A stretch of 37,210 nt of DNA from Ignavibacteria bacterium (GTDB lineage: Bacteria; Bacteroidota; Ignavibacteria; Tepidaquicellales; OLB5): contig JAUQWQ010000088.1 of assembly GCA_030835085.1 (NCBI GenBank), positions 1 through 37,210 on the forward strand, read 5' to 3'. The position numbers and the translations under genes were made by a program. Of the stretch, positions 5,073 to 37,210 are shown piece by piece. Each line of letters starts with the position of its first letter. Positions within the stretch are counted from its first letter, which is position 1. Under the pieces are notes generated by a model. That model saw only the letters and a program-made list of their open reading frames with translations. It did not search any database and was not told the DNA's origin.

Positions 5073-5633
5073 TTAAAAGTTTATTGTCGCACCTGCTTTT
5101 ATCGGCAGGTAATTTGCTGTTCCTTCACCGAAGATGATGTTGAAGCTGGTTTCACCGAAGAGTGAAAGTTTTGGTGATACTTTGAATGCAACTCCGCCGC
5201 CGAATTTCATTCCGAAATTGGTTTCGCTATCACCGCGGTAATATGTTACACCCTGGTATTTCATATCGCTAACGCTGTTTAAATAAAGACCCATACCAAC
5301 AAGTCCGTATGGCTTTATATCAGCATCCTTATCAAACTTGCCAACCATGATATCACCCATAATTGAAGTTGATTTCAGGCTGTAACCTGTGTAATCGCCG
5401 GTTTCTTTGTATGGAAATGTATTATACTGCAGGTCGACCCTTGCGGCTACATTTTCATGGAATACATATCCCGCATTGCCGTGAATGTTGAAACCAACGC
5501 CCCATGCGTCTGAAATATCACCAACAGGGATTGAAATAACGCCGCCCAGCGATGCAAATGATTTCTGGTAGGTCTGTGAATAAGATGTGATACCGATAAA
5601 TAATAATGCTGCTAAAAATAAAAGCTTTTTCAT
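5073..5633 (-). CDS. outer-membrane beta-barrel protein
   Basis: A 186-residue precursor. The signal peptide 'MKKLLFLAALLFIGITSYSQ' ends in the Ser-Gln pattern frequent in this phylum. The mature part has alternating hydrophobic/polar strands and Gly- and aromatic-rich turns ('GGVISIPVGDISDAWGVGFNIHG', 'FGGGVAFKVSPKLSLFGETSFN') and a C-terminal 'KAGATINF' ending in Phe. This is the pattern of small eight-stranded barrels (OmpW/OmpA-like, DUF6089-type). The frame extends 17 codons upstream, but the ATG at 5633 has an AAAGGA Shine-Dalgarno about 7 nt upstream and starts exactly at the signal peptide. Likely a passive or structural surface protein; no ligand can be inferred. Confidence 0.8.
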   Translation of the reverse strand: MKKLLFLAALLFIGITSYSQTYQKSFASLGGVISIPVGDISDAWGVGFNIHGNAGYVFHENVAARVDLQYNTFPYKETGDYTGYSLKSTSIMGDIMVGKFDKDADIKPYGLVGMGLYLNSVSDMKYQGVTYYRGDSETNFGMKFGGGVAFKVSPKLSLFGETSFNIIFGEGTANYLPIKAGATINF

Positions 5634-34402: not shown

Positions 34403-34969
34403 ATGCGAATAATCAGCGGAAAATTCAGGTCAAGAAAAGTACATTCTTCCGCGGAGCCAAAATCATGCGTTAAAGGGAATATTTCCGGTTACAGGCCAAC
34501 TACCGATAGAGCAAGGGAAACACTTTTTAACGTTCTGAATAATATTATCGATTTTGAATCTACTGAATGTCTTGATCTATTCGCAGGGTCAGGTGCAATC
34601 GGATTCGAGTTTCTGAGCAGGGGGGCAGTTCGCTGTGAATTTGTCGAAAATTCAGTAAAACAGCTTTTCAACATAAAAAAAACAGCGGAAGAACTTGGTT
34701 GCCTGGATAATATCAAAATATATGAAGAGAATGTACTTGGTTTTCTGAAAAGAACAGACAAAAAGTTTTATGACATTATTTTTGCTGACCCGCCTTATGG
34801 ATACGAATTTTACAATGAGCTGATGAAGGAAATTCAGAACACCGGATTCACAATTTTTGTACTGGAACACGCCGGGGAAAGCGCCGGGATGTTTAACCTG
34901 AATGACTTTGAGATCATTAGGAAAAATGTAGGGCAAACCAATTTTACAATTTTAATCAAAAAGGACTGA
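34403..34969 (+). CDS. rsmD: 16S rRNA (guanine966-N2)-methyltransferase RsmD
   Basis: A 188-residue Rossmann-fold methyltransferase that modifies G966 of 16S rRNA in the small subunit. 'MRIISGKFRSRKV' is the family N-terminus and 'RPTTDRARETLFNVL' (31-45) follows. The SAM-binding motif I is 'DLFAGSGAIGFEFLSRGA' (58-75) and the catalytic motif is 'ADPPYG' (128-133). Length is normal. It starts 3 bp after the PilM-like gene and overlaps coaD by 1 nt. The rsmD-coaD pairing is common across bacteria. Confidence 0.94.
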   Translation: MRIISGKFRSRKVHSSAEPKSCVKGNISGYRPTTDRARETLFNVLNNIIDFESTECLDLFAGSGAIGFEFLSRGAVRCEFVENSVKQLFNIKKTAEELGCLDNIKIYEENVLGFLKRTDKKFYDIIFADPPYGYEFYNELMKEIQNTGFTIFVLEHAGESAGMFNLNDFEIIRKNVGQTNFTILIKKD

Positions 34970-35457
34970 TGTCAATTATAACAGCAATTTACCCCGGAAC
35001 ATTTGACCCGCTAACATTTGGGCATCTTGATGTAATTGAACGCGCTTCAGCGCTGTTCGGGAAGATAATTGTTTCTGCCGCAATCAGTACTTCCAAAAAC
35101 ACTTTGCTGAGTATTGAAGAAAGGGTTGATATTATCAAAGCTTCTGTGAGCCATATAAAAAACTGTGAAGTTGTTACTTTTGACGGGCTGCTTGTTGATC
35201 ATGCAAAAAGCAAAAATGCTTCTGTAATTATACGTGGTTTAAGGGCTATATCAGATTTTGAATATGAATTCCAAATGGCATTAACAAACCGTAAAATTGC
35301 AGGTAATATTGAAACCGTATTTCTTATGCCATCTGAAAAATTTTCATTTATCAGCTCAACACTTGTTCGTGAAATTGCCAGGTATGGCGGAGATGTAAAG
35401 GATTTTGTTCCCGAAGAAGCAGCAAAGGTAATAAAAGAAAAATTTGGAAAGAATTAA
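34969..35457 (+). CDS. coaD: phosphopantetheine adenylyltransferase
   Basis: A 162-residue cytosolic nucleotidyltransferase that joins ATP and 4'-phosphopantetheine to dephospho-CoA, the fourth step of coenzyme A synthesis. 'AIYPGTFDPLTFGHLDVIERA' carries the TxGH motif (TFGH, 16-19). 'RGLRAISDFEYEFQMALTNRK' and 'FISSTLVREIARYGGDVKDFVP' (the ISSS/TxxRE motif) are present. Length is typical. The ATG overlaps the rsmD TGA by 1 nt (TGATG). No strong terminator is visible in the 58 bp to the convergent hydrolase gene. Confidence 0.95.
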   Translation: MSIITAIYPGTFDPLTFGHLDVIERASALFGKIIVSAAISTSKNTLLSIEERVDIIKASVSHIKNCEVVTFDGLLVDHAKSKNASVIIRGLRAISDFEYEFQMALTNRKIAGNIETVFLMPSEKFSFISSTLVREIARYGGDVKDFVPEEAAKVIKEKFGKN

Positions 35458-35515
35458 AAAATCTTAAACGCTTGTTGTTTAAAAACGCACTTTGTCATTC
35501 AGGCACTATTTCATT

Positions 35516-36373
35516 TCAACCCAGAAATTTTTTGAAAAATGCTGTAGTAAGCACTATCACTTCATCAAATGACCTGTTGCTTCCTTTGAAAGGGTGTTCT
35601 GTGCCGAAAGTATGTCCTGTATTTTCTATGATACACAGTTCGGAAAATTCCTTGTCTGAAGAATAATAAATTTTTTCTGCATCGGTGTACTTTACAGCAA
35701 GGTCCTCCTTCCCGTGAATTATCATGTATGGTATTTTAAGCCTTGAAACAGCTGCAGTGATATTAAATCTTTCTTTGTTCTTCTCTATATCATCCAGAAG
35801 GGTTACATTCATTTTCATTAACTGATTTGTTCTGGTATTAGGCATTTCTATAGAACCGTTTTGGCGCCATCTTTTCTTCTGTTCAGCAGTATACCGGTCA
35901 AAATCAGCAACCGATGCAAGTGTAACCAGTGCTTTAACAATACCGCTGTTTTCTGCCGCTGTGATTATTGATAACCCTCCTCCCCTTGAATGACCGATCA
36001 ACCCGACCTGGTCTTTATCTACCGGATATTTTTCGGCAAGTTCCGGTATATAATTTAATACTGAAAAATAGTCATTTAACTCAATAGAGTGGGTATTTTC
36101 AGCGAATTTATCAAGTTCAGAAAACTCTTCAGGTGAAGTATTATTTACACCATTATGTGTGAAATTAAAACTTAAAACGGCAAATCCGCTTTCGGAAAGT
36201 TTGCTGTATAAGTAAGGAAAACCGCCCCAGTCTTTAAATCCTTTAAATCCGTGTGCGAAAACAATTAGCGGAATTTTAACATTTTTATCAGATGTAATTG
36301 AGTTGAAATAAAGGGTTGCGTCAATTATTCCTGATAAAACGGAATAAATCTGCACATTTTGTTTAATATTCAT
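35516..36373 (-). CDS. alpha/beta-hydrolase (prolyl-oligopeptidase-like fold)
   Basis: A 285-residue cytoplasmic serine hydrolase. 'VFAHGFKGFKDWGG' (38-51) forms the oxyanion region. The nucleophile elbow is G127-H128-S129-R130-G131. D224 ('HGKEDLAV') and H254 ('ENTGHTFG') complete the triad. The layout matches dienelactone hydrolase or prolyl-oligopeptidase-like acyl hydrolases, but the substrate is unknown. No signal peptide. It is convergent with coaD, and its start shares the 183-bp intergenic region that also holds the strong plus-strand promoter at 36483. Confidence 0.85.
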   Translation of the reverse strand: MNIKQNVQIYSVLSGIIDATLYFNSITSDKNVKIPLIVFAHGFKGFKDWGGFPYLYSKLSESGFAVLSFNFTHNGVNNTSPEEFSELDKFAENTHSIELNDYFSVLNYIPELAEKYPVDKDQVGLIGHSRGGGLSIITAAENSGIVKALVTLASVADFDRYTAEQKKRWRQNGSIEMPNTRTNQLMKMNVTLLDDIEKNKERFNITAAVSRLKIPYMIIHGKEDLAVKYTDAEKIYYSSDKEFSELCIIENTGHTFGTEHPFKGSNRSFDEVIVLTTAFFKKFLG

Positions 36374-36430
36374 TCTATTGGGTTATTAACTGGATATAAA
36401 TGTGTGGGTTGAATCCCGCAAAAATGCTAA

Positions 36431-36479
36431 AAAATTTTCATAAACGCAATAACTTGAAAATATTATTTATGAAAATTTT
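36431..36479. repeat. 14-bp perfect inverted repeat upstream of a strong promoter
   Basis: AAAATTTTCATAAA (36431-36444), a 21-nt spacer, then TTTATGAAAATTTT (36466-36479). The right arm ends 3 bp before the -35 hexamer at 36483, and the arms are A/T-tract-rich, so they could be an UP element, a regulator site or both. No T-run on either side suggests termination. Confidence 0.7.
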
Positions 36480-36482
36480 CAC

Positions 36483-36511
36483 TTGACATACTGAATTAAA
36501 AATGATATAAT
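36483..36511 (+). promoter_or_regulatory. perfect sigma70 promoter
   Basis: TTGACA (36483-36488), a 17-bp spacer, TATAAT (36506-36511): both hexamers are full consensus with ideal spacing. It drives the secreted-protein gene whose ATG is at 36557. This predicts a leader of about 40 nt. It also shows that this organism recognises the classical primary-sigma sequence rather than only the Bacteroidetes -33/-7 type. Confidence 0.85.
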
Positions 36512-36556
36512 GCGTTATTCAATTAACTATTTTTTAACTAAACGAAAACAAAAACT

Positions 36557-37210
36557 ATGAGAAAATTATTTTCGCTTTTGTTTGCTGTTATAGCTTTCGT
36601 TGCTGTAACAAAAGCACAGGATGCACCGCATTCATTCGGACCGGCTCCGGTTCAGAATACGGTTCAGGCTCCGATTGACGGCAATTTAGATGCTTCGATC
36701 GGCAAACGTTATTTTTCACAGATCTCATCATCACCGACCTTCCAGTTCGGTAAAGCTTTCACAGAATCATGTACCATCACAAACGTTGGTGCACCGTTCA
36801 CAATAACATTCCCGGGTGGTTTGATGTACAGGAATGGCGTTGTTTACACATATAACCAGTCATCACCGTTCCAGTTATGGTCAATTGATACCGTAACAGG
36901 TGCACATACACTTGTATTCAACATGACAGGTGTTCCCCAGACAAACTTCACCGGTATGTGCTGGGATGGAACAAACGTATATGGTTTATCATCAAGCTTG
37001 GCAGCATCACAGATCTTCACAATTAACATGACAACCGGTGTTTGTACCCCGATCGGTTCACCATCAGCAGTATGCGCAGGCGGTATCACACTGCTTGGCC
37101 GTACAGGCTCACAGTATAGCTTGTTTGCAATCGATATCGTAGCAGATAACTTATACAAGTTCAACAAAACAACAGGTGTAGCTACACTTGTTGGAACACT
37201 TGGTGCATTA
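36557..37210 (+). CDS. secreted, probably highly expressed surface protein (partial, runs off the window)
   Basis: The frame is open for all 218 codons to the window edge, so the C-terminus is not seen. Signal peptide about 1-21 ('MRKLFSLLFAVIAFVAVTKAQ'). The mature part is beta-rich with 'GAPFTITFPGG', 'LWSIDTVTGAHTLV ... MCWDGTNVYGL', 'IFTINMTTGVCTPIG' and 'LFAIDIVADNLYKFNKTTGVATLVG', the last three being WD/YVTN-like propeller repeats of the 'DTV-x-G' kind. Codon choice differs from its neighbours: 12 of 16 Phe codons are TTC and 8 of 11 Asn codons are AAC. That suggests strong translational selection. It probably ends in a T9SS sorting domain, but this is outside the window. It lies behind the perfect sigma70 promoter. 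Confidence 0.75.
   Translation, partial: MRKLFSLLFAVIAFVAVTKAQDAPHSFGPAPVQNTVQAPIDGNLDASIGKRYFSQISSSPTFQFGKAFTESCTITNVGAPFTITFPGGLMYRNGVVYTYNQSSPFQLWSIDTVTGAHTLVFNMTGVPQTNFTGMCWDGTNVYGLSSSLAASQIFTINMTTGVCTPIGSPSAVCAGGITLLGRTGSQYSLFAIDIVADNLYKFNKTTGVATLVGTLGAL

Follow-up and report, generated by a model that had tools for sequence, protein, structure and literature searches.

A consensus promoter at a conserved chromosomal site in Ignavibacteria probably drives an abundant exported protein, and its mRNA leader may pair with a candidate small RNA conserved in the genus

A full-consensus promoter that stands directly behind a perfect inverted repeat raises the question of what the promoter drives and which element, the repeat or some other sequence, controls its output. 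The initial annotation of such a site near the end of an Ignavibacteria contig had proposed one of the most abundant secreted proteins of the cell, possibly under a switch acting through the repeat. We examined this site in the window, by which we mean the whole stretch of DNA analyzed (37,210 nucleotides, the entire contig C218 of the 4.05-Mb genome G000, referred to below as the own genome), and compared it across a set of 39 genomes, 13 of which form the genus for the count of small RNA genes. The relatives of the window genome are Ignavibacteria MAGs (WB-IL-15, SRR2107182_bin.96, Chlorobi bacterium OLB5, SJ631 and CRAIB_MAG89). Features of the locus are collected in Table 1.

Table 1. Features of the promoter region and adjoining genes in the window
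Feature	Position	Strand	Remarks
coaD-like gene	34969..35457	+	Second syntenic anchor; same order in G003, G004, G005 and G012
Alpha/beta hydrolase gene	35516..36373	-	Divergent; syntenic anchor in the genus; name from family resemblance
Left arm of 14-bp inverted repeat	36431..36444	.	Lineage-specific, not conserved
GCAATAAC box	36446..36453	+	Starts 37 nt upstream of the -35 hexamer
Right arm of inverted repeat	36466..36479	.	A/T-rich stretch beside the -35 hexamer
-35 hexamer TTGACA	36483..36488	+	Kept in 10/13 syntenic sites
-10 hexamer TATAAT	36506..36511	+	TATWAT and 17-bp spacer each in 13/13 sites
Predicted 5' untranslated leader	36517..36556	+	First part conserved where another gene follows
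Predicted pairing site for small RNA loop	36519..36543	+	Small RNA encoded at G000:C225:6129-6237(+)
Exported T9SS-type protein gene	36557..37210	+	Contig end interrupts after 218 codons

The site is defined by its neighbors, the divergent hydrolase gene and a coaD-like gene. The hydrolase was detected in 38 of the 39 genomes, the one genome with no match being G007, which is 64% complete, and the region beyond the hydrolase start was read in the 30 genomes that yielded a locus. A promoter block followed by an exported-protein gene lies there in G000-G006, G008-G010, G012 and G014; in G011 a match to a protein of the same family begins beside the hydrolase and then meets the contig end, and the G013 contig supplies only 121 bases beyond the hydrolase. 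By a scripted test the block is absent from the 16 order-level genomes that were read.

The promoter itself is as the initial annotation described it, matching the sigma-70 consensus at 12 of 12 positions across 36483-36511, with a TG ahead of the -10 hexamer; TTGACA and TATAAT at a spacing within 16-18 bp upstream of a start codon, the arrangement sought for a sigma-70 promoter, are thus found, and this is the sole 12/12 site between 19000 and 37210. As to the remark that a full consensus is rare, the own genome contains 5 copies of TTGACA-N16..18-TATAAT and equally 5 of the reversed control, and the 39 genomes together 169 against 242, so the consensus string is not enriched genome-wide. It is the position and conservation of this copy, not the string itself, that raise it above chance. 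A search of the own genome for a second copy of the promoter block returned short partial matches only. In an ungapped alignment of 13 sites anchored on the -35 hexamer, the -10 hexamer is TATAAT or TATTAT throughout and the spacer is always 17 bp, and the promoter is kept even at syntenic sites where a different exported-protein gene lies downstream. The exceptions in the -35 hexamer are TTGTTT in G009 and G002 and TTGCAA in G008; the G011 site was anchored at an upstream TTGACA, and a second candidate, TTGATT-17-TATAAT, lies nearer the gene there with the leader behind it. Upstream, the GCAAT of the GCAATAAC box recurs in 12 of the 13 sites, starting approximately 33-37 nt before the -35 hexamer (a shift of at most ~4 nt), and marks a possible activator site. 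We are highly confident that 36483-36511 is a strong sigma-70 promoter. For comparison, the accessible part of PMC9723704 gives TAnnTTTG for sigma-A promoters in Bacteroidetes, and promoter or small RNA data for Ignavibacteria were not found in the accessible part of PMC8510549.

The inverted repeat is equally real. Its 14-nt arms are 100% complementary and 21 nt apart, with the right arm stopping 3 bp before the -35 hexamer, and when the 183-bp intergenic region was shuffled 300 times with dinucleotides preserved, the longest perfect repeat was on average 7.6 bp and at most 12. This length and this placement would favor an operator or an invertible switch acting on the promoter, but the repeat is not retained at the 12 other syntenic sites. 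The 14 of 14 paired positions in the own genome fall to 12 in the nearest relative, G005, to 7-10 in G012, G003 and G004 and to 2-8 at eight other sites, against a chance level of approximately 4-5, and a perfect repeat longer than 7 bp was found upstream of the -35 hexamer at none of the 12. A conserved operator or promoter inversion was rejected on these grounds and, since the dyad is not conserved in relatives, the proposed switch is unsupported; we regard a role for the dyad in regulation as very improbable. The A/T tract of the right arm is possibly an UP-element-like sequence. Judged by conservation, the predicted control element of the site is the mRNA leader downstream of the promoter, not the dyad upstream.

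The gene behind the promoter is interrupted by the contig end, and its remainder, including the C-terminus, is probably on contig C27, the reverse complement of which aligns over nt 1-889 with nt 678-1572 of the G012 orthologue at 82%. Complete orthologues in G005, G012 and G003 encode 524-525 amino acids, and these genes open an array of related ones next to coaD and the hydrolase. The initial annotation had raised the matter of a sorting domain beyond position 37210, and one is present in the full-length G012 relative (T9SS type A sorting domain TIGR04183, E 1.8e-12; PF18962), which also has sub-threshold matches to DUF4394 and the P-domain. The N-terminus of the window product is hydrophobic as judged by eye, and we class the product as a predicted T9SS cargo. 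The structure predicted by AlphaFold for the G012 orthologue (mean pLDDT 53, pTM 0.32) was too poor for a fold search. The reported codon bias (TTC in 12/16 and AAC in 8/11 codons) was reproduced, and codon adaptation relative to eight reference genes (EF-Tu, EF-G and ribosomal) is 0.79, the highest of the 27 window genes (median 0.63) and above the 0.77 of EF-Tu. On C27 the continuation piece scores 0.83 and two array paralogues score 0.57 and 0.59, which indicates that the first array gene is the one adapted to high expression. Codon adaptation and the sorting domain in the relative together bear out the suggestion of a very strongly expressed exported protein, and the product is probably very abundant.

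Besides the -10 hexamer, the most conserved stretch of the site is ATTCAATTAACTATTTTT, which lies just past it and would form the 5' end of the mRNA if, as the position of the -10 hexamer suggests, transcription starts near 36517. Where another gene lies downstream, at six sites (G001, G002, G006, G008, G009 and G010), its majority fraction averages 0.88, as opposed to 0.57 immediately after; the leader is missing in G010, with three core mismatches, and in G014, where the core is absent. A 16-mer from this leader, TCAATTAACTATTTTT, has exactly three exact copies in the own genome: the window leader, the leader of a T9SS protein on contig C31, and an antisense copy in the loop of a candidate small RNA. 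Allowing at most one mismatch, 40 matches were listed in 13 of 15 genomes, and loci were read for 30 of them. The 25 that belong to the genus comprise 12 sense leaders, 4 antisense copies in the small RNA loop and 9 matches with no such context, and none of the 5 from the other family is an exported-protein leader of this kind. The 12 sense matches lie 25-38 nt before the ATG of an open reading frame with a hydrophobic N-terminus, as compared with 616 of 6000 random window positions that have an ATG-started frame at comparable distance (binomial p 2e-6, although the 12 include several orthologues, which are not independent of one another). When up to two mismatches are allowed, the own genome shows no enrichment (27 matches, as compared with 42 for the reversed word), so only close matches to the leader word carry signal. 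At the C31-type loci (L151 at G000:C31:7413-7428, L157 and L166) the word lies behind a different upstream region with no consensus promoter; their product is a second conserved exported protein, of the choice-of-anchor J family, with the T9SS domain in G000, and the word stands next to the Shine-Dalgarno sequence in G000, G005 and G002.

The antisense copy (C225:6159-6174) has a -10-like CTCTTATATTTT on one side and a GC-rich terminator on the other, within a candidate gene consisting of a hairpin, whose loop UGAAAAAUAGUUAAUUGAG is the complement of the leader, and a terminator; its layout is GCATCTGG-loop-CCAGATG followed by AACCCCCGC...GCGGGGGTTTTT. Upstream of the gene is the stop codon of a T9SS multiheme cytochrome (PF14522, PF13435, TIGR04183), and downstream is another T9SS gene. 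A -35 hexamer could not be recognized by eye, and the RNA may be the processed 3' end of the cytochrome mRNA. As sequence, a discrete RNA gene with a terminator is conserved at one syntenic place in 11 of the 13 genus genomes. A covariance model built from five species matched the six held-out species at that same place, with E values of 9e-22 in G012, 1.2e-12 in G003 and G008, 4.6e-6 in G011, 6.2e-5 in G006 and 7.4e-4 in G010, where values of approximately 1e-4 to 1e-3 fall in the range of terminator noise, so that for G010, and partly for G006, the assignment depends on synteny and the sequence of the loop. The model found no copy in G007 or in G004, which has the exact leader. Additional model matches in G004, G005, G003, G013, G014 and G009 resembled plain terminators on reading, as did those in G004:C2, G037 and G007.

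Within the 11 loci GTTAATTGA is invariant, and the outer stem has seven of seven standard pairs in nine loci and six of seven in G006 and G010, with one pair in G011 changed on both sides from C-G to U-A. In the five-species alignment the pairing measures exceeded those of slid controls but not those of shuffles, 95 of 500 of which reached them. The loop core is duplicated in G010 (L188, G010:C98:9319-9419), as TTAGTTAATGGTTAGTTAATTGA. Searched against Rfam, the 11 loci and window positions 35400-37210 gave no match at the gathering score, with weak sub-threshold matches only, and the literature searched for small RNAs in Ignavibacteria yielded no paper. We describe this candidate as a previously undescribed small RNA that is conserved in the genus. 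A search for Hfq gave no match in any of the 39 genomes, compared with 5 of 14 control genomes positive.

Pairing of the loop with the window leader is predicted at -25.9 kcal/mol, against -7.6 +/- 2.3 for leader shuffles, none of 1000 being as low, and the C31 leader pairs at -33.0. Among same-genome pairs, no shuffle in 1000 was as low in 9 of 13 leaders (G000, G005, G012, G003, G001, G002a, G009b, G002b and G011); shuffles as low numbered 4 in each of G009a and G010, 26 in G008, where pairing is weak, and 263 in G006, where the leader does not pair. The C31 and window genes rank first and second among 163 own-genome upstream regions (mean -9.6, sd 3.6), although this set over-represents matches to the leader. 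The small RNA thus shows extended complementarity to the 5' regions of mRNAs, beyond chance. Separately, an outer-membrane beta-barrel gene (PF13505; window 5076-5633, minus strand) ranks second among window genes in codon adaptation, at 0.725, and the leader just above 5633 contains CAATTAACTAAC and pairs with the loop at -13.9 kcal/mol.

These energies have to be weighed against a simpler account, in which an ordinary strong sigma-70 promoter is joined to an efficient A/U-rich leader and the similarity to the loop reflects chance or a shared DNA-binding site. In its favor, the accessible parts of PMC3155529 and PMC6847099 report that Bacteroidetes lack Shine-Dalgarno sequences and adjust translation through other features of the leader, and the missing enrichment of the leader word at two mismatches points the same way. 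So does the missing co-change between loop and leader: the small RNA of a given genome pairs no better with its leader than foreign ones do, and, with foreign small RNAs pairing about equally well, what is seen is conservation without shown compensatory change. Against this account stand an exact 16-mer complement placed in a hairpin loop that is conserved in 11 genomes with an invariant core, the strong pairing of the C31 leader and duplex energies that shuffles never reach in most same-genome pairs, and we consider it unlikely. A functional interaction between the small RNA and the leader is, on these sequence comparisons, quite probable.

The reading that we prefer, at a probability of roughly 60%, is that a major surface protein exported by the T9SS is expressed from the strong promoter at a fixed place in the chromosome, that the transcript starts with the conserved A/U-rich leader, and that a small RNA of ~80 nt (hairpin, loop and intrinsic terminator), encoded behind the exported multiheme cytochrome, would use its loop to pair with the 5' end of this leader and also with leaders of a few other exported-protein mRNAs. 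Acting without Hfq, it would most likely make these mRNAs less stable or less well translated by masking the region of ribosome standby or initiation, and the dyad would have no conserved part. Production of the RNA, its pairing in the cell and repression are each inferred. Given an interaction, repression is somewhat favored over activation. Pairing that begins at approximately the third nucleotide of the predicted transcript could instead stabilize the leader by protecting its 5' end, but in C31 the pairing ends beside a GGAGGA before the start codon, and pairing next to a Shine-Dalgarno sequence before the start codon is the place usually used for repression. Activation also has a precedent in Flavobacterium, where deletion of Rfp18 lowered target mRNAs according to the accessible part of PMC9723704. 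We hold activation or stabilization to be improbable.

The proteins encoded at the site share a C-terminal half and have unlike N-terminal domains. Residues 279-487 of G012 and 228-436 of G001 are 77% identical, with no BLASTP match ahead of them. The N-terminal families are choice-of-anchor R in G001 and a Kelch propeller in G010, with no family assigned in G006; the G008 protein, of the choice-of-anchor J family, has no BLASTP match to other site proteins, in a comparison that includes some genes incomplete in the stretches examined. In G012 the first and last array genes (L046 and L048, 8 kb apart) share 753 identical nucleotides, gene nt 70-822, between unrelated flanks, which may be a MAG assembly error; this region is 89-99% identical within G005 and ~84-97% identical between G012 and G005. 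The P-domain regions of two site genes in G002 are 96% identical, compared with 81-86% against G009. This pattern of identity bears signs of gene conversion. In G002 and G009 a second site gene lies ~2 kb further (L143, L146), which has a separate TTGACA-17-TATTATGC promoter and shares the leader. We suggest, only tentatively, that this is an expression site for surface variation, with a fixed promoter and leader, one conserved small RNA and an interchangeable N-terminal ectodomain that would pass from species to species and be swapped with array copies by gene conversion, the promoter, leader, P-domain and T9SS tail staying in place.

Several known systems resemble parts of this arrangement. 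Small RNAs of the MicA/RybB type in enterobacteria damp abundant outer-membrane-protein mRNAs through pairing in the 5' region, as is proposed here for an abundant exported protein; they differ in being Hfq-dependent and sigma-E driven, with short seeds. The sap locus of Campylobacter fetus, a surface-layer cassette array in which domains are exchanged by recombination, likewise places one strongly expressed site beside related genes, but at the present site no inversion was seen, and the promoter and leader stay as the N-terminal domains change. A further likeness, drawn independently of sequence comparison, is to Rfp18 of Flavobacterium psychrophilum, a small RNA conserved within a genus of Bacteroidetes, with one stem-loop predicted to pair with several secreted-protease and adhesin mRNAs (PMC9723704, accessible part). 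The predicted pairing site here differs in being the leader at the very 5' end of transcripts from a conserved expression site, and the lowering of target mRNA on loss of Rfp18 in that report is opposite in sign to the repression favored here. GibS of Bacteroides thetaiotaomicron, as described in the accessible part of PMC7366714, uses an extended A/U-rich seed at translation initiation regions in a lineage with no obvious Hfq, and the long predicted pairing without Hfq here fits that report; its seed lies in an unstructured 5' part and its targets are metabolic, in contrast to the hairpin loop described here.

The locus provides a canonical TTGACA/TATAAT promoter from a class that is a relative of the Bacteroidetes, and its partner may be the first small RNA with a proposed target set in Ignavibacteria, on the evidence of sequence alone. 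In these organisms, which are abundant in anammox and wastewater systems, the proposed mechanism would tie regulation of the exported protein with the strongest drive to the locus of an exported cytochrome, with no need for Hfq, and selection appears to retain the leader even as the protein encoded after it is exchanged. If the site does serve surface variation, the small RNA would regulate "the surface protein" whatever its identity.
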